IMG/VR virus record: IMGVR_UViG_3300046463_000520
Coordinates: 1 to 64,000 of that record
Source of the DNA: a virus
Length of the DNA: 64,000 nucleotides
Reading direction: 5' to 3' (one strand)
Of this stretch, positions 1 to 44,007 are shown one piece after another. The translations under genes and the position numbers were made by a program. Position 1 is the first letter of the stretch; every line of letters starts with the position of its first letter. Below the pieces are notes generated by a model. That model did not search any database. It was not told the DNA's origin and saw only the letters and a program-made list of their open reading frames with translations.

Positions 1-2
1 CG

Positions 3-362
3 GGGGCGAAGCTGGAAGGTGGCGAGTGGCGCGCGATCTTCAATTCCGCCCGAAGTCCTGATGCGACGTTCGAACAATTCTGTGGTTGGATGCGCGAAGA
101 AATCGCCGCCACTCCCGCGAGTTCGGTGGCCGATGCGGCGCGCACACCTGACGCCGACGAGTGTTTCGCCGAAGCCAAGGAAGCGATAGACGCCGCGCGC
201 TGGCGCACGGCCCTGCGATTCGTCGGCGGCGAACTGTCGGGCGGATGGCGGCAATGCTTCCACTTCGGCACGCTGCCTATCGCCAAGGGCGTGGATATCA
301 TGCGCGGCAGTGTCGCGGAACACTTCACTGCGGCCATCGACGCCGCGCGCAAGGGGGAATGA
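3..362 (+). CDS. Unidentified phage protein, 5' end outside window
   Basis: The reading frame is open from base 3 and ends at TGA 360-362, so the window shows only the last 119 codons. The visible part ends with a glycine/tryptophan-rich stretch (FVGGELSGGWRQCFHFGTL) followed by an alanine-rich helix. I do not recognise the family. The next gene starts two bases after the stop, so the two are almost certainly co-transcribed. An internal ATG at 90 exists, but the coding pattern is continuous upstream of it. Confidence 0.65.
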   Translation, partial: GAKLEGGEWRAIFNSARSPDATFEQFCGWMREEIAATPASSVADAARTPDADECFAEAKEAIDAARWRTALRFVGGELSGGWRQCFHFGTLPIAKGVDIMRGSVAEHFTAAIDAARKGE

Positions 363-363
363 C

Positions 364-573
364 ATGTCATCACGTTTGACCGTAGAGCATTGGCCGTCTG
401 AGAACAAAGCCCAAATCACGGTGACGGGCGAATACCTGAAGGTTCTCGGATACATCGGTCACGACATACTGAACAATGCGGCACTCTCGGATTTCCCGGA
501 AGAACTGCGCGACGAGATTCGCGACGTGGCGGAAAAGCTGCAAGAGTTGTGTCCGCCCGACGAGAAAGCCTGA
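364..573 (+). CDS. Small hypothetical phage protein (69 aa)
   Basis: The start ATG at 364 follows a purine-rich AAGGGGG ribosome site about seven bases upstream. That decides it over an in-frame ATG at 310, which lies inside the upstream gene. The protein begins MSSRLTVEHWPSENKAQI and ends in an acidic amphipathic helix (EELRDEIRDVAEKLQEL). There is no membrane segment and no family I recognise. It is the last gene before a strong terminator. Confidence 0.6.
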   Translation: MSSRLTVEHWPSENKAQITVTGEYLKVLGYIGHDILNNAALSDFPEELRDEIRDVAEKLQELCPPDEKA

Positions 574-596
574 CGCCCGCCCGCACCAACACACAC

Positions 597-621
597 AAGC
601 CCGCCGCGCGCGGGCTTTTTT
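597..621 (+). terminator. Rho-independent terminator
   Basis: GCCCGC (599-604) pairs with GCGGGC (610-615) and is followed by six T. It closes the operon ending at 573 and insulates the terminase promoter that starts 12 bases later. Confidence 0.85.
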
Positions 622-632
622 ACGTCCGCACT

Positions 633-677
633 TAGGAAAACACAAAGCGTTCTCCGCAGGAACGGCACTTAACGTCG
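633..677 (+). promoter_or_regulatory. Two-box phage promoter, divergent copy, upstream of terminase
   Basis: Box 1 is TAGGAAAACAC (633-643). The 26-base spacer carries the middle block GCAGGAAC (656-663), and the second-box position reads TAACGTCG (670-677). Box 1 and the middle block match the genome-wide element, but box 2 is poor. The element follows a terminator and precedes the terminase genes, whose first ATG (708) lacks a ribosome site. Promoter function is inferred from recurrence and placement. Confidence 0.6.
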
Positions 678-707
678 GCAGTGTAGGCATCACGCACGCA
701 CATAGCC

Positions 708-1619
708 ATGACCGACGATACGAAAGACCCGACCGAACCGAAGAAGCCGCGCAAGCCTGCCGCAAAGAAGGCCGCGCCCGCTCGCAAGCAACCCGCGCGC
801 AAGACGGCGGCGCGCAAGGCTCCCGCACGCAAGCAACCGGCAAAGACGCCTGCACGCAAGGCCTCGGCGAAGAAAGCCGCGCCCGCGAAGAAGACCACGC
901 CGCCCGCAAAGAAGGAGCCCGCGCGCAAGGTCGCATCGGGAACCAAGCTCACGAAGGAACAGGCATCCGAATTCGTCGCCCGCTCAGTCTCGGACATGGT
1001 GGGTGAGGCTACCCGCGCAATGGGACGCCCGACCAAGTACCGCGACGAGTTTGTGCCGCAGATGATTGCCTTCTTCAACATCCGCACACAGAAGGTCATT
1101 GAGACGCCGCTGAAGAACAAGGACGGCAGTGTCGCCACGGATAAGCAGGGCAACGTCCTGTATGAGAAGACCGTCGTCACCAACGAATTCCCGACGCTCG
1201 AACGATTCGCTTCCGAATTGGGCGTCACGCGGCTCACTTTGCACAATTGGGCGCACGACACGGACGACGATGGGAAACCTTTGCGGCCCGAGTTTTTATA
1301 CGCCTACGCGCGCGCACGGGATTTGCAAGCGGCGCTCACCATCGAAGGCAGCTATGCCGGGATTTACGAGTCGCGCGCCTCTACGCTCGGCCTGAAGAAT
1401 CTCGCCGGATGGAAAGACCAACTCGAAGCGCACGTCGAAGGGACCATCGAAACGACGTCGCAGGAAAAGCTGGACGAGATTTACGCGAAGGGTATGGCGA
1501 ACTCCAAGCGCGCGGAAGAAGAAGCGCGCAACCGGGCGCTGCATGGGGTCGTGCCGGGCATCGCCGCGACGCCTGCATTCCGTCCGTCGGAGAACGACGA
1601 CGACGACGCGGACGATTGA
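708..1619 (+). CDS. terS: Small terminase subunit with histone-H1-like N-terminal tail
   Basis: Residues 1-75 are a lysine/alanine/proline/arginine-rich tail of repeated PARK/AAKK units, like histone H1 or AlgP-type C-terminal domains. From about residue 80 the protein resembles phage small terminase subunits: GRPTKYRDEF, then a helix-turn-helix-like segment (FASELGVTRLTLHNWAH), then a helical region (YARARDLQAALTIEGSYAG), and an acidic C-terminus. Small terminases recognise the packaging site and load the large subunit, and terL follows after three bases. The basic tail could add sequence-independent DNA binding; that is inference. No Shine-Dalgarno sequence precedes the ATG. Confidence 0.75.
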   Translation: MTDDTKDPTEPKKPRKPAAKKAAPARKQPARKTAARKAPARKQPAKTPARKASAKKAAPAKKTTPPAKKEPARKVASGTKLTKEQASEFVARSVSDMVGEATRAMGRPTKYRDEFVPQMIAFFNIRTQKVIETPLKNKDGSVATDKQGNVLYEKTVVTNEFPTLERFASELGVTRLTLHNWAHDTDDDGKPLRPEFLYAYARARDLQAALTIEGSYAGIYESRASTLGLKNLAGWKDQLEAHVEGTIETTSQEKLDEIYAKGMANSKRAEEEARNRALHGVVPGIAATPAFRPSENDDDDADD

Positions 1620-1622
1620 CGT

Positions 1623-3182
1623 ATGGCGGCGAAGGTAAAGACGCTGGTCGATGACACGCGCTATTTGGCGTTCGTTGAGCGGTACGCATTCGATATCACG
1701 CGCTTCGCCATCGAAGTGTGCGGGCTGACGTCCCCGACGTGGCAACAGATATTGCTGTTCGATTCGGTCAGTAATCCCGGCTCGCGCACGTCTGTGTCAT
1801 CCGGGCACGGCACCGGCAAGACGTCGGGCTTCGCCATCATCGCCCTGTGGCACTTGCTCGTGTATGCGTTCTCGAACACGTTCCTGACCGCGCCGAAGCT
1901 GAAGACCGTGCATGACGGCGTGTGGAAAGAATTCGCCGACTTGTCGGAAAAGATTCGCAATGGCCCGCAGGCGTGGATACGCCCGTACTTCGAAATCGAG
2001 TCGGAGAAGGTGTTCGTCAAGGGCTTCAAGCTGAACTGGTTCGTGCTCGCGAAGACGGCCCCGCGCGGCTCCCCTGAGAACTTGGCAGGTACTCACCGGG
2101 ACTGGCTTCTGTGGCTCGTTGACGAAGCCTCTGGCGTGCCTGACGCGAACTTCGGTGTGGTGACGGGCGCACTGACTGACGAGCGCAACCGCATGGCGAT
2201 GGCGTCACAGCCAACGCGCTCGACGGGCTTTTTCTTCGACTCGCACCACGGCCTGTCGCGCGACGAAGGCGGCGCGTGGAACAACTTCGTATTCAACTCG
2301 GAAGAATCGCCGATTGTGTCGGCGGCGTTCATCGCGGAAAAGCGCGCGCAGTACACCGCTGAAGAATACGCAATCAAGGTGCAGGGCCGCTTCCCTGAGA
2401 ACAGTTCGAAGTATCTGCTCGGACCGGAAGCGATTCGCAAGTGTCACGGCCTGAACGTCATCCGCCCGGACGACGAATGGGGCTGGATTATGCCGCTCGA
2501 TATCGGCGGCGGCGGCTGGCGTGACGAGACGGTCAAGCTGGCGATGCAAGTCACCGGGCAGGGCGAGTACGGCGAGAACCCGCGCCGCGTGCAACTGAAG
2601 AAGGTTCTGCTGCATTCAGGCGGCATCGACCCCGCGCAGGTACACGGCCATGTCGTCCATCAATGGGGCGAGCACGACAACGCCACGTCGATGATTGACG
2701 CGGGCGGCATGGGCTTGGTCGTGTGCAAGCAACTCGACCTAGACGGCTTCTCGAACTACATCAAGGTGCTTTGGGGTAAGCCCAATTTCGCGAAGGAATA
2801 CCGCGAGCGCTACTTCAATCAGCGCGCGCAGGCGATGTGCGGCATTGCGCGTGCCGTGGAAACGGGGCGCTTTGGCATCGACGCAGACGTGGATATCGGC
2901 TTCGTCAAGCGCATGGTGCTGCAAGGCTCACGCATCCCCTATCACTACGACGAGAAGGCCCGTCGCGTGATTATGAAGAAAGAGGACATGAAGAAAGAAG
3001 GCATCCCGTCGCCTGACATATGGGACGCGTGCTCGTTTCCCTTTCTCGAAGACGCCTATTACTCCGTGTCCGGCGACGCCTACAAGACGCCGACCGGCAA
3101 GACCGAAGACCTTCAATCAACCCGCGAACGAATGCTCGCGAAACTGCGCGAGCAACAAGCCGCTGCGCGCTCTGCAAGTTAG
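1623..3182 (+). CDS. terL: Terminase large subunit (packaging ATPase-nuclease)
   Basis: This 519-residue protein has a Walker A motif GHGTGKT (residues 61-67) and a Walker B motif LWLVDEAS (about 163-170). Downstream acidic clusters (PLDIGGGG, SMIDAGGMG, DIWDACSF) fit the RNase H-like nuclease domain. Length and order are typical of phage large terminases, the motor that pumps DNA into the prohead and cuts concatemers. It follows terS directly. The stop codon TAG is part of a TAGGAAAACGC motif that also acts as, or overlaps, the ribosome site of the next gene. Confidence 0.93.
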   Translation: MAAKVKTLVDDTRYLAFVERYAFDITRFAIEVCGLTSPTWQQILLFDSVSNPGSRTSVSSGHGTGKTSGFAIIALWHLLVYAFSNTFLTAPKLKTVHDGVWKEFADLSEKIRNGPQAWIRPYFEIESEKVFVKGFKLNWFVLAKTAPRGSPENLAGTHRDWLLWLVDEASGVPDANFGVVTGALTDERNRMAMASQPTRSTGFFFDSHHGLSRDEGGAWNNFVFNSEESPIVSAAFIAEKRAQYTAEEYAIKVQGRFPENSSKYLLGPEAIRKCHGLNVIRPDDEWGWIMPLDIGGGGWRDETVKLAMQVTGQGEYGENPRRVQLKKVLLHSGGIDPAQVHGHVVHQWGEHDNATSMIDAGGMGLVVCKQLDLDGFSNYIKVLWGKPNFAKEYRERYFNQRAQAMCGIARAVETGRFGIDADVDIGFVKRMVLQGSRIPYHYDEKARRVIMKKEDMKKEGIPSPDIWDACSFPFLEDAYYSVSGDAYKTPTGKTEDLQSTRERMLAKLREQQAAARSAS

Positions 3183-3224
3183 GAAAACGCATGTCACTCC
3201 CTGAGAAAACGCCTGCAATCATTG
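3180..3224 (+). promoter_or_regulatory. Possible internal copy of the two-box promoter, overlapping a start codon
   Basis: A perfect box 1, TAGGAAAACGC (3180-3190), is followed by a middle block GAGAAAAC (3203-3210) at the position used in other copies. The box 2 position (3217-3224) reads AATCATTG, a poor match. AGGA here is also well placed as the ribosome site for ATG 3191, so box 1 could be coincidence. The identical 11-mer and correctly placed middle block argue against that. Confidence 0.35.
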
Positions 3225-3616
3225 GACGTCGTGAAGCAAAAGAGCGCGGCCTGACGTCGTATTTCACTGGCAAGCCGTGCAAGCGCGGACACGTCGCGAA
3301 GCGCCAACTGAACGGGACGTGTGTGCTGTGCGCGCCGGAATACAAGACGGCTCACACGCAGCGCGCATTGGAACGTGACCCGGAAGGCGAGCGCGCTCGT
3401 GTGCGGGCGGCAGTGAAGCGCCATTACGACACGAACAAGACCGCGATTCTGGATAAGAAGCGCGCCTATTACGTGCAGAACGCGGCGGCGCTCAAGGCGA
3501 AAGCCAAGGCGAACCGCGAAAAGAAGAAGGCAGAGAAGGCCGCGCCCGCCGCCGTCGATGCCGTTGTGACGTCCAACCATCAGGAAACTGTATGCGAGCA
3601 CTCCACGCAATCCTAG
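3191..3616 (+). CDS. Zinc-binding protein with GKPCKRGH motif and lysine-rich tail
   Basis: Residues 25-50 read YFTGKPCKRGHVAKR followed by CVLC, a CxxxH/CxxC arrangement that looks zinc-binding. It is common in small phage proteins and in front of HNH/endonuclease VII-type nuclease domains. No nuclease active site is visible here. The remainder is a basic helix rich in Lys, Ala and Arg. It begins 8 bases after terL and its 3' end overlaps the next gene. A role in packaging or DNA processing is suggested only by position. Confidence 0.6.
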   Translation: MSLPEKTPAIIGRREAKERGLTSYFTGKPCKRGHVAKRQLNGTCVLCAPEYKTAHTQRALERDPEGERARVRAAVKRHYDTNKTAILDKKRAYYVQNAAALKAKAKANREKKKAEKAAPAAVDAVVTSNHQETVCEHSTQS

Positions 3617-3963
3617 CCGCCGCCAAGGGCATTCTCGCCGCCTGCGGCCTGAAGCGATACGCCATTGCCGCCGAAGTCGCCGACGTCGCGCTGACGACCG
3701 TCGAAGGCGTCGTCGCGCAGGTTCAGACACACGCCGCCGACGGCGCGAGCACGGTCTTTCTGTCCGCGCCTGACATGTCGCCCGCGCTGTTCCGCCAATA
3801 CACGAGCGCGCTGCGCGATGCCTTCCAGAAGGAATACGAGCGCACCGGCAACAAGCTCGCGCACGTCGTCATGCTGCCGCCCGGCATGACGCTCGAAGTG
3901 GTGAAAGAAGCCGCCGACCAACTGCTGCACGCCGCCGAATACCTCGCAAAAGAAGGCCGCTAA
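3592..3963 (+). CDS. Hypothetical protein (123 aa)
   Basis: The ATG at 3592 lies inside the end of the previous gene and is preceded by CAGGAAAC, a fair ribosome site. The protein is alanine-rich and probably all helical, apart from a central region (ASTVFLSAPDMSPALFRQY, then KLAHVVMLPPGM) that looks like alternating strand and helix. The N-terminus is hydrophobic but short and lacks a clear signal cleavage site. The family is not recognised. Confidence 0.6.
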   Translation: MRALHAILAAAKGILAACGLKRYAIAAEVADVALTTVEGVVAQVQTHAADGASTVFLSAPDMSPALFRQYTSALRDAFQKEYERTGNKLAHVVMLPPGMTLEVVKEAADQLLHAAEYLAKEGR

Positions 3964-4347
3964 GTGTTCTGGCCTGTCGTCCCTGAATCCATGACCATCG
4001 CTATGACCGAACAACACATGAATAGAGCCGCCGAAGACACGCCGCTCAACGAAGCGGAACTGAAGCAAGCCAAGCGCGCCGCACAACGCGCGATCCCGCT
4101 CGCACGCGCCGCCGCCAAGCCGTCGGACGCGCTCGGCAAGCTGTTCAAGCGCGCCGGACTCACGAAGGGCATCGACACGTCCATCGTGCTCGGAGCGGAC
4201 GCGAATCACCTGTTGGTCATTCAGGCGATTGCTGCCGACGGCTTGATGGTCGAGAGGACGCCCGAAATCCGAATGCTGCTCGAAGGCATCGCACTGGCCT
4301 GCGAGAAGACGCTTGCACTCCAACAACCGAAGGACGCCACGCAATGA
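3964..4347 (+). CDS. Hypothetical helical protein (127 aa), GTG start
   Basis: The frame opens with GTG immediately after the previous TAA, with GAAGG nine bases upstream as ribosome site. In-frame ATGs at 3991 and 4003 are alternatives. The C-terminal 90 residues are helical (SDALGKLFKRAGL; EIRMLLEGIALACEKTL). Function is unknown. It overlaps the next gene by ATGA, as do most genes in this run. Confidence 0.6.
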   Translation: MFWPVVPESMTIAMTEQHMNRAAEDTPLNEAELKQAKRAAQRAIPLARAAAKPSDALGKLFKRAGLTKGIDTSIVLGADANHLLVIQAIAADGLMVERTPEIRMLLEGIALACEKTLALQQPKDATQ

Positions 4348-5087
4348 TGAAAGTTCTGCAACTCACCGCGCTCGATGGCTCGAAGTGGAACATTCCCGCA
4401 ACCGTCATTGCCGACTCGTTCAGGGCGCACTACGGGCCGGACGAAGAACCGGACGACGGCGACCTGATTGAGTGGGCGGGCAACGACATGAACTGGTCGG
4501 ACGTCAAGGCGCACGCCGTACAGGTAAAGGGCGCGGATGCGCTCGACATGCAGGATTCGTGGAACGAAGGCGACTTCGAAATCACGGATGCGCCGGACGT
4601 CGCCGCGCGCGCCGCCGCCGTGGTGGAAGTCTCGAAGCAAGCGTTCGCCTGCACGCGGTGCGGTGCGTCGTGTGTGGCGGGCGAAAAGCTCGATTGTGAC
4701 CGTGGCCCTTGCCCGATGGAACTCGTCGGCGATGACGACGAAATTGCGCTTGTCATGCCGGTTCCGCTCGATGCCGACGAACTGGCCGCGCTGAAGCTGC
4801 GCCTTGCGGCGGCGCGCTGCGCGACTGGCGAACTCGATACCGCCATTGAACCGTTCGCGCATATCAACCTTATGCCGGACCATATCGACGCGCTCGCGCT
4901 CACTGTGAAGGTCGCGGACAAGGTGACGTCGAAAGACTATCTCGACCTGTACTACGCAATGCGCGAAGACGCGGCGACCATCCTCGCGGGCGTGCAAGCG
5001 GGCGACCACGGCGACGCGATCATTGCCGCCTTCGGCGAGCGGGCGGCGCGCATGGCGATTCTGAAGGCCGCAGGGCTGTCCGAATGA
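4344..5087 (+). CDS. Hypothetical protein with central Cys motif (247 aa)
   Basis: The N-terminal 90 residues are acidic and tryptophan-containing. Residues 108-128 hold four cysteines (FACTRCGASC, then CDRGPCP), consistent with a small zinc site. The C-terminal 110 residues are helical. No known catalytic motif is seen. It overlaps its neighbours on both sides by ATGA, which implies translational coupling. Confidence 0.6.
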   Translation: MMKVLQLTALDGSKWNIPATVIADSFRAHYGPDEEPDDGDLIEWAGNDMNWSDVKAHAVQVKGADALDMQDSWNEGDFEITDAPDVAARAAAVVEVSKQAFACTRCGASCVAGEKLDCDRGPCPMELVGDDDEIALVMPVPLDADELAALKLRLAAARCATGELDTAIEPFAHINLMPDHIDALALTVKVADKVTSKDYLDLYYAMREDAATILAGVQAGDHGDAIIAAFGERAARMAILKAAGLSE

Positions 5088-41289: not shown

Positions 41290-44007
41290 ATGGACTACTT
41301 CGCCTCCCTCTTTCGCGCCGCGCACGCGGGCGCTTACGGCATGAACGCGCTGCCGGAACCGACGCGCGCGCAGAAAGACGCGGGCGACTACGCGAAGGGC
41401 CGCATTGACTGGCGCGGCCTGACCATCGCCATCGAGAACCCGCGCGGCTCGCTGCGCCGCTGGCACGCCGACGACGGCACGAGCGGCGAGAACCTTCAAT
41501 TGGCGCACTACGGCTATTTCGAAGGCATCGACGGCGCGGACGGCGACGAAATGGATTGCTACGTCGGACCCTACCCGGAAGGCGACCGGGTTTTCGTCGT
41601 GAATCAGTTCGTGCGCGGCGCGTTTGACGAACACAAGGTCATGGTCGGATTCGTGGACGAGCGCACCGCGCGCGCCGCGTATCTCTCGAACTTCAAACCG
41701 GGCTGGCCCGGCCTGCAAAGCATCGTGGCCTGCACTGCCGGGCAATTTATCGAATGGGCGCGCAACGGCGATCACACTGCGCCGCTCACGCCGGAACAAC
41801 TCTCCAACGGGAAAGACATGGAAAAGGTACTTTGGGATAGCGCGGAACTGCCGCAACCGCGCGGCGCGAGCCTCGCGCAAGTGCTGTATGCGATTCGCGC
41901 GCACGACGGCGCGGACGGGCTGTGTTTCGACCCGCTGACCGCCGCCGACATTCTCGAAGACTCCGACGGCGTTTTGGCGATGGACGCGCTTGTCACGGTC
42001 TATCGCAAGCTCGAATTTCAAATGAACGTGCTGCGCAAGCTGCTCGACCGTGTGGGCGGCGCGCTCACCGTGTCGGCGCTTCAGATTACCGACCCGTTCA
42101 AGCGGTCCGGCACGACGAACGTCGCGGCGATTTTCGAATTGAGCGACGGTCAAACCGTGTCGATTTTCTTCCACAATCCCGACGTCACGCCGCAGAAAAT
42201 CATGCCGGGCGACGAACTCGTGTCGTGGAAATGGGTGCTCAACAAGAAAGACATTACGCTCGTCGTCGCACCGGAACGCGGTCGCGATCTGAACGTGCGC
42301 AATGTCGCCGCGCGCGTCATGCAACTGGCATCGAAGAATTCCGCCCGTTTCCAGACGGCGAACGGCAAGCGCGCCGCAACGATGGAAGCGATTGCCTCGC
42401 TGAAGACCGAATTCGAGACGAAGACCGAAACACTCAATGGCCTTCTGACCGAAATCACGGAACTGGAAGCGAAGGTCGCGGCCCTGCCGCCGAAGGTCGA
42501 GCCGGTCATCGAGCCTGTCATCGACCCCGCGCCTGTCGAGCCGGTTGAGCCGGTCGTGGAACCCGTTGTCGAGCCGGTCATCGAGCCGCTTCCGACCGCC
42601 GAAGACCCGGATACCTTCGACCCGACCACGGCGGACAACTACGCCAAAATCGCGGGCGACATGGCGAAGCTGGAGTTTTATCAGGACACGCTCGACGCGA
42701 TGTTCCAAAGCCGCGTCATCGACATTCGCAACGCCCTGCGCGAACTCGGATGGGAAGGCGAGAAGTATCAAGCGCTGTCGAAAAACGGCTACACGGCCTT
42801 CTTCAAGTTCGAGCGTGTCGGCGCGGGCGCGAACGTCATCGGCCTCGCCATCGGTCTGGAAGGCTTGCGCATGACCCCGATTCAAGACGACCTGACGCGC
42901 ACGCCGCTCGAACTCGCTGCCGCCGTCGATGCGCTCGCGCCCGCGCCGGTCGTGGAACCTGTTGTCGAGCCGGTCATCGAGCCGGTTGCGCCGCACAAGT
43001 CAACGCTGATTCTCGCCGCGCTCGTCGCTCAATTCGGCTGGCGCGAAACGGAAAGCCCGCTGTTTCTGCAAAAGGACGTCGGCGGCGGCGAGCAAGGCGA
43101 AACGAACCCGGAAGGCGCGCGGATTGTGAATGCGCGCTTTGATGACACGTCGCGCTACATCGAACTGCAATCGGGCTTTGCAACCGTGTTCGATATGGAC
43201 ACGCGCGACGGCGGCGATGCGCAAGCTGTTGCGGCGACGTTCAATGCGCGCGTCGCGGCATGGGCCGATAGCACGGCCATTGCGCCGACGCCGATCCCGG
43301 AACCGACCCCGGAACCGGTCGCGCCGCAAGTGCCGGACAACGTTCGCAAGCGCGTACAGATTGCGCTCGATACGCTGAAGGACATTCGCGAGTCGCTCGA
43401 CAACGCCGTGACGCTCGAAGCGAAGGTCGGCGAGTCGGGCCGCTATCAGGCGGATACGCTCAACAATCGCCGGGCGGAAATCGACCGCTCGCAGGCGACG
43501 CTGGCGACGTTCCGCGAGACGGCGGCAAAGCTCGGCATCGACGCCGATGCGTTCATTGCATCGCTTGGCGGTGAGCCGGACCTGACGCCTAGCGCGCAAG
43601 CCGCCGACTGGCTTGCGGGCGAAGCTGAACGCACGCGCATCGCCGCCGAAGCGGAAGCCGCACGCCTCGAAGCGGAACGTGTCGCCGCCGAACAAGCCGC
43701 GAACGAAGCCGCCGCGCGCATCGCCGAAGCGGAAGAAGCCGCCCGCCGCGAAGCCGAAGAAAAGACCGCGCGCGAAGCTGCCGAAGCGGAAGCTGCCGCC
43801 GCTGCGTCGCGCGTCGCCGACGAACTCGCCTTCGTTGCGCGCGCCGCTGCCGGGCAGGAAGACTTTATGGTTAAGGACGTGACCGACCGCCTCGCAGAAA
43901 TCGCGAAGACCGCTGAAGCCGGTACGGAACTCGCTGGCCTGCTCGCGCAAGCGAAGACCGCCGCGAAGAACGCATTCATTGCGGCATTCAAGGCGAAGGT
44001 GGGCTAA
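41290..44007 (+). CDS. Polyvalent protein: pyrophosphatase-like plus DarA-like antirestriction domains (905 aa)
   Basis: Residues 70-165 (YGYFEGIDGADGDEMDCYVG, RVFVVNQ, DEHKVMVGFVDERTARAAYL, and an IEWAR end) match the inorganic-pyrophosphatase-like domain of phage polyvalent proteins. Residues 225-365 (YRKLEFQMNVLRKLLDRVGG, NVAAIFELSDGQTVSIFFHN, PGDELVSWKWVLNKKDI) match the DarA N-terminal defence-against-restriction domain. PVEPVxEPV linkers separate further modules, one long Ala/Glu coiled coil follows, and the last 60 residues recur in the 45884 gene. Such proteins are injected with phage DNA to block host restriction. Confidence 0.75.
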   Translation: MDYFASLFRAAHAGAYGMNALPEPTRAQKDAGDYAKGRIDWRGLTIAIENPRGSLRRWHADDGTSGENLQLAHYGYFEGIDGADGDEMDCYVGPYPEGDRVFVVNQFVRGAFDEHKVMVGFVDERTARAAYLSNFKPGWPGLQSIVACTAGQFIEWARNGDHTAPLTPEQLSNGKDMEKVLWDSAELPQPRGASLAQVLYAIRAHDGADGLCFDPLTAADILEDSDGVLAMDALVTVYRKLEFQMNVLRKLLDRVGGALTVSALQITDPFKRSGTTNVAAIFELSDGQTVSIFFHNPDVTPQKIMPGDELVSWKWVLNKKDITLVVAPERGRDLNVRNVAARVMQLASKNSARFQTANGKRAATMEAIASLKTEFETKTETLNGLLTEITELEAKVAALPPKVEPVIEPVIDPAPVEPVEPVVEPVVEPVIEPLPTAEDPDTFDPTTADNYAKIAGDMAKLEFYQDTLDAMFQSRVIDIRNALRELGWEGEKYQALSKNGYTAFFKFERVGAGANVIGLAIGLEGLRMTPIQDDLTRTPLELAAAVDALAPAPVVEPVVEPVIEPVAPHKSTLILAALVAQFGWRETESPLFLQKDVGGGEQGETNPEGARIVNARFDDTSRYIELQSGFATVFDMDTRDGGDAQAVAATFNARVAAWADSTAIAPTPIPEPTPEPVAPQVPDNVRKRVQIALDTLKDIRESLDNAVTLEAKVGESGRYQADTLNNRRAEIDRSQATLATFRETAAKLGIDADAFIASLGGEPDLTPSAQAADWLAGEAERTRIAAEAEAARLEAERVAAEQAANEAAARIAEAEEAARREAEEKTAREAAEAEAAAAASRVADELAFVARAAAGQEDFMVKDVTDRLAEIAKTAEAGTELAGLLAQAKTAAKNAFIAAFKAKVG

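Follow-up and report, generated by a model that had tools for sequence, protein, structure and literature searches.

There is debate over how small terminases (TerS) locate DNA and keep hold of it (PMC9611059, PMC11331095). In HK97 the disordered N- and C-terminal arms of TerS become ordered on DNA and make specific contacts, and in Sf6 a mutant of Lys6, within the unstructured N-terminus, abolishes DNA binding (PMC11331095). P22 TerS requires its C-terminal tail for DNA binding (PMC9611059). AlgP consists of an N-terminal helical domain and a C-terminal domain of KPAA repeats, peptides of which bind DNA, and the tail of PhaF presumably anchors granules to the nucleoid (PMC9239181). In both Chlamydia and Burkholderia, Hc2 contains 5-aa units in varying number (PMC2848022). 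Among papers accessible without subscription, a literature search returned no report of a small terminase joined to a histone-like or lysine-rich tail.

The protein described here is a P22-gp3-type small terminase with an unusual N-terminal extension. Its gene lies near the beginning of a virus record of 98,469 bases, and the DNA analysed (hereafter, the window) covers the initial 64,000 of these. The record encodes a PacB-like large terminase (TerL), whose gene begins 4 nt past the terS stop codon, as well as a replication initiator, ParA, ParB and a CI-like repressor; judged by this gene content, the source is a phage-plasmid, best read as a P1-like one of Burkholderiales. The features of the locus are given in Table 1. 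Elsewhere in the window, the N-terminal part of a 905-aa ORF (41290-44007) hits three kinds of family together: minor head, endolysin and DarB-like antirestriction.

Table 1. Features of the terS locus and of related loci (window coordinates unless a locus is named)
Feature	Position	Strand	Basis or remark
Terminator-like hairpin 5' of terS	597..617	+	
terS (small terminase, 303 aa, N-terminal basic tail)	708..1619	+	ORF list, profiles, model, Foldseek
Histone-H1-like tail, residues 10-76	735..935	+	Composition scan, structure prediction
15-nt (5-aa, ARK-type) unit register within the tail	775..848	+	Repeat analysis, comparison with L002
Linker, residues 77-104	936..1019	+	Zero amino-acid changes between window and L002
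TerS core, residues 105-303 (GRPTKY motif, beta-hairpin 128-158, HTH, long helices)	1020..1616	+	
Predicted helix-turn-helix (HTH), residues 164-183	1197..1256	+	Profile and model
Acidic C-terminus SENDDDDADD	1587..1616	+	In window and L002 only
terL (large terminase)	1623..3182	+	34-40% identical to P1 PacB, D6, Rb1 and ABMM1 TerL; 70% to the TerL adjoining TerS on pBVIE05
terS tail and core differing independently, core into terL	L020:3156-4001, L021:2939-3868, L022:1845-2690		

The terS gene and its product

The 67 residues of the tail include 18 K and 7 R (25 K/R in total), 20 A and 12 P, and only 2 D/E. When all ORFs of at least 60 aa in the whole record were scanned, this region gave the top 60-aa segment for K/R/A/P content (0.87, net charge +22). 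The runner-up segments belonged to alternative-frame ORFs, and the best non-overlapping ORF after TerS reached 0.67 with a net charge of -7. The core of the protein carries a net charge of -9. ORFs overlapping the tail region on both strands were rejected and taken as by-products of GC-rich sequence, because the core changes that separate the window from its near relative L002 (TerS 94% identical) are mostly synonymous in the TerS frame. An Rfam search of positions 1-5000 matched zero RNA elements.

Pfam, PHROGs and Foldseek all point to a small terminase of the P22 gp3 type. Two PHROGs terminase families match the protein (phrog_3064, 1.2e-16; a second family, 2.6e-10). The Pfam profile GP3_package (PF16677) scores 19.3 bits (E 0.0013), below its cut-off of 29.4, and passes the cut-off in the relatives L036, L019 and L016. 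A sequence search against solved structures gave no match. The AlphaFold2 model of the window TerS was built from 29 sequences (mean pLDDT 63.7, pTM 0.38), and the top four PDB matches in Foldseek were P22 gp3 chains (3P9A; probability 0.96-0.98, E 0.07-0.1, TMt about 0.5). In the model, residues 1 to about 110 are unstructured save for one short helix turn, and the core comprises a helix (residues 115-123), the beta-hairpin, the HTH and long helices. The predicted HTH helices span residues 164-171 and 175-183; the tail stops about 85 residues upstream, the intervening stretch being taken up by the linker of 28 aa, the GRPTKY motif and the beta-hairpin.

An earlier note on this DNA had described the gene as a small terminase with a histone-H1-like basic tail, and this description is borne out by the composition of the tail, the core profiles and the adjoining PacB-like TerL. 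The kinship of the C-terminal part to small terminases, on which that description depended, holds by the phrog_3064 match, the GP3_package matches in relatives and the adjacent terL, and the structure prediction proposed there as a check places a predicted disordered tail ahead of a folded core.

Tailed relatives and the possible origin of the tail

Using TerL as the query, we recovered 28 viral and two genome loci. Fourteen complete TerS (window, L002, L036, L009, L015, L017, L019, L020, L021, L022, L041, L034, L016 and L073) carry basic extensions of 69-126 aa with net charges of +10 to +22. The database search suggested in the earlier note thus revealed 13 further tailed proteins, with identities down to about 32%, and the tail is not unique. 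The hosts known are Burkholderia vietnamiensis G4 (plasmid pBVIE05), Paraburkholderia sp. C35 and Undibacterium crateris. The cores of the 14 proteins mostly have net charges of -4 to -10, two being at +1, and F/W/Y/I/L/M/V make up 5-12% of their tails. Tail and core charge are related with a rho of -0.49 (n 36), a statistic that ignores shared descent.

In a sister group (L023, L026, L027 and L032) an N-terminal HTH and a linker occupy the place of the tail, so that by sequence comparison the H1-like segment sits where the sister phages have that module. The model of the L027 protein has N-terminal helices (pLDDT 77-85), a disordered linker (36-104) and then the common core, and its N-terminus matches DNA-binding families. 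Marine-type relatives, a label guessed from their neighbours because no habitat is recorded for the contigs, have extensions of only 0-32 aa, which in some cases form a short basic arm. The view in the earlier note that a small terminase usually starts close to its DNA-binding domain is therefore apt for the marine relatives of the core, but it fails within the protein's own group, where the complete terS recovered beside a PacB-like TerL have a basic extension of 69-126 aa or an HTH with linker. One TerS core is thus found with N-termini of four sorts (no extension, short basic arm, HTH plus linker, long H1-like tail), a set that allows the role of the terminal arms to be tested directly. In the unrooted core tree long extensions cluster, with 4 changes against 13.3 for shuffled labels, 'long' being defined by length only and including the non-H1-like L014 and L077.

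Among 399 Burkholderiaceae genomes searched, a match was present in five only, and a genome scan with a single sequence as query gave no matches. Isolate-phage matches to the TerS of the window and of pBVIE05 cover the core only, with no tailed isolate among them, and in Pseudomonas, Ideonella and Vibrio plasmids with a related TerL the gene upstream has no H1-like tail. In Pseudomonas phage-like plasmids (L083:997-1719 and L084:896-1684) the ORF just 5' of terL resembles, by eye, a truncated and diverged terL. A distant TerS (L067:2133-2714) has its own short lysine-rich N-terminus (KAKAKAKKKPVKKPAKKK), perhaps gained independently. In four loci (L009:5683-5850, L019:3056-3220, L021:2939-3110 and L073:1480-1640) TerS starts with a P-loop-like segment, GRRAGKTT...G(K/E)TV, before the basic part; it gave only a weak AAA_14 match (E 0.083). 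A viral ORF at L069:3780-4170 has a long D/E run followed directly by KAPARKAPARK repeats.

Upstream of terS, three of the tailed loci (L020, L021 and L022) share 94-100% identity. At its tail start L022 agrees with L020, L021 being 62-65% identical there, and in the core it agrees with L021, L020 being 77-88% identical there. Tail and core thus appear to have been swapped by recombination as separate pieces, with assembly chimerism a possible source of the pattern, each of the three being a contig from a metagenome.

Host genomes encode HC2 proteins (L078, L079). Two further host proteins, named from their sequences, bear comparable segments: an H-NS-like protein of Paraburkholderia with an H1-like lysine/alanine tail (L080) and an exonuclease-III-like protein whose K-rich tail contains KKTAVKK repeats (L081); H1-like tails thus occur on several host proteins that act on DNA. 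In blastn, the tail DNA aligned with the host H1-like loci in short pieces only, the longest of 147 nt at 69%. Direct capture of a host gene is unsupported by such short alignments, which would make convergence by unit expansion a likelier origin of the tail than recent capture.

Selection on the tail and its proposed role

Between the window and L002, residues 1-104 show a pS of 0.149 and a pN of 0.032 (ratio 0.21), and the core a pS of 0.218 and a pN of 0.036 (ratio 0.17). None of the seven amino-acid differences gains or loses K/R, and one five-codon repeat unit of the window tail is absent from L002. The L015-L017 pair gives a tail pN/pS of 0.22, and across three close pairs K/R is altered in 2 of 21 amino-acid changes. 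These values argue that the tail is translated and kept under purifying selection. In distant pairs the tail ratio is 0.51-0.83 (0.68-0.83 for L009-L021 and L009-L020), and in several of them the tail outpaces the core in evolution; it follows that over long distances composition rather than sequence is kept, the constraint on sequence being weak.

We consider it probable that the tail is a flexible polycationic arm with which TerS holds DNA, standing in place of an N-terminal HTH module. The first 76 or so residues would form a disordered arm, several of which would be carried by each assembled TerS ring, their number following from known TerS rings. Their hold on concatemeric DNA would be electrostatic and indifferent to sequence, and would increase the local affinity of the mostly acidic core for DNA, while the HTH of the core and the ring would take on recognition and the recruitment of TerL. 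We infer that the tail binds DNA, that the protein oligomerises and that the arm takes over the function of the HTH. Non-specific holding of DNA, one of the roles suggested in the earlier note, is accordingly the best-supported function, to which composition, disorder, charge and published relatives point.

That the tail is a tolerated low-complexity expansion, produced by slippage of GC-rich codon units and of little function, we regard as unlikely. The number of five-codon units does differ between the window and L002, a 15-nt repeat register is present, and the tail diverges quickly in both sequence and length; however, the low pN/pS of the two close pairs, the sparing of K/R and the high net charge retained in all 14 TerS argue against this explanation, and the phage carries nothing comparable in its other genes.

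It seems slightly more doubtful that the tail acts elsewhere than on phage DNA, whether by nucleoid tethering, by docking to TerL or the portal, or by bending back to the acidic C-terminus of an adjoining subunit (charge-block autoinhibition). The tethering attributed to PhaF/AlgP-type tails (PMC9239181), the SENDDDDADD terminus and the acidic core are consistent with such roles, but most tailed relatives do not share the acidic C-terminus, and TerS itself handles DNA.

A role for the DNA of the region instead of the protein, with its direct repeats (750-929) forming a pac site, is very improbable. P1 provides a precedent, its pac lying in the 5' part of pacA and the cleavage sites being annotated inside that gene; in the present gene, however, the repeats track the 5-aa units of the protein and the gene's own codon preference, and tail base changes between the window and L002 are mostly synonymous, the DNA varying while the protein is kept.

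The start codon bears on whether the tail is part of the protein at all. An SD-like GGTGAGG lies shortly 5' of an internal ATG (1020, M105) in the window and L002, and the ribosome-binding site ahead of the window's ATG 708 is weak. This internal start is not kept in L036 or most other relatives, many of which have GTC, GTA, TTC, CCA or CGC, none able to start, in its place, and several carry a GGAAAC/GAGGA-type ribosome-binding-like sequence right before the ATG of the tail. It is hardly credible, given these relatives and the purifying selection on the tail, that the working TerS begins at M105 and that the tailed form is minor or absent. A separate gene or start for the tail, the circumstance which the earlier note had named as damaging to its reading, was likewise rejected as the main reading, as the tail is in frame and constrained and relatives have sites before it; the M105 alternative in the window and L002 makes this rejection less than complete.

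Returning to the polycationic arm, its wider consequence may be a change in selectivity. The lineage might have swapped a sequence-reading N-terminal HTH for a sequence-blind histone-like arm, exchanged and resized among close relatives, which tunes selectivity for its own DNA and hence the packaging of host DNA. We hold this to be improbable; if true, the arm would tune the amount of host DNA packaged (generalized transduction).

Comparison with described systems

HK97 TerS also engages DNA with disordered N- and C-terminal arms (PMC11331095), but these are short, fold on a specific cos site and contain no H1-like repeat tail. PacA of P1 and D6 (phrog_1711) likewise precedes PacB and ends in an acidic stretch, as does the window TerS. 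PacA begins with an N-terminal HTH followed by a lysine-containing linker, whereas the window protein has a disordered N-terminus lacking that HTH, does not match phrog_1711 and possesses the core of another TerS family. P22 gp3, the top Foldseek hit for the core model, depends on a terminal tail for DNA binding at its C-terminus, while the basic tail described here is N-terminal and much longer.

A further close counterpart is the TerS of pBVIE05 (CP000621), an 88-kb plasmid of B. vietnamiensis G4, which is annotated as a hypothetical protein only. Its core is 51% identical and it has a basic N-extension of about 110 aa, of different sequence and opening with the GRRAGKTT segment that is missing from the window.

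Regarding the tail itself, HC2 (PF07382), AlgP and PhaF have in common with it a disordered K/A/P composition, but they are separate chromatin or granule proteins. The HC2 profile scores 23.4 bits on the window TerS, short of its cut-off of 40. Mimicry of host regulators such as AlgP, as had been suggested, is not upheld: the tail sits N-terminal to a TerS core and is built of ARK-type 5-aa units, with neither the KPAA repeat nor the helical domain of AlgP, and only composition is in common. As in Hc2, the number of its 5-aa units varies. The arm is best read as built like the tails of host HC2, H-NS and AlgP/PhaF-type proteins, lysine-rich tails such as some host DNA-acting proteins bear being used here in a viral packaging machine.
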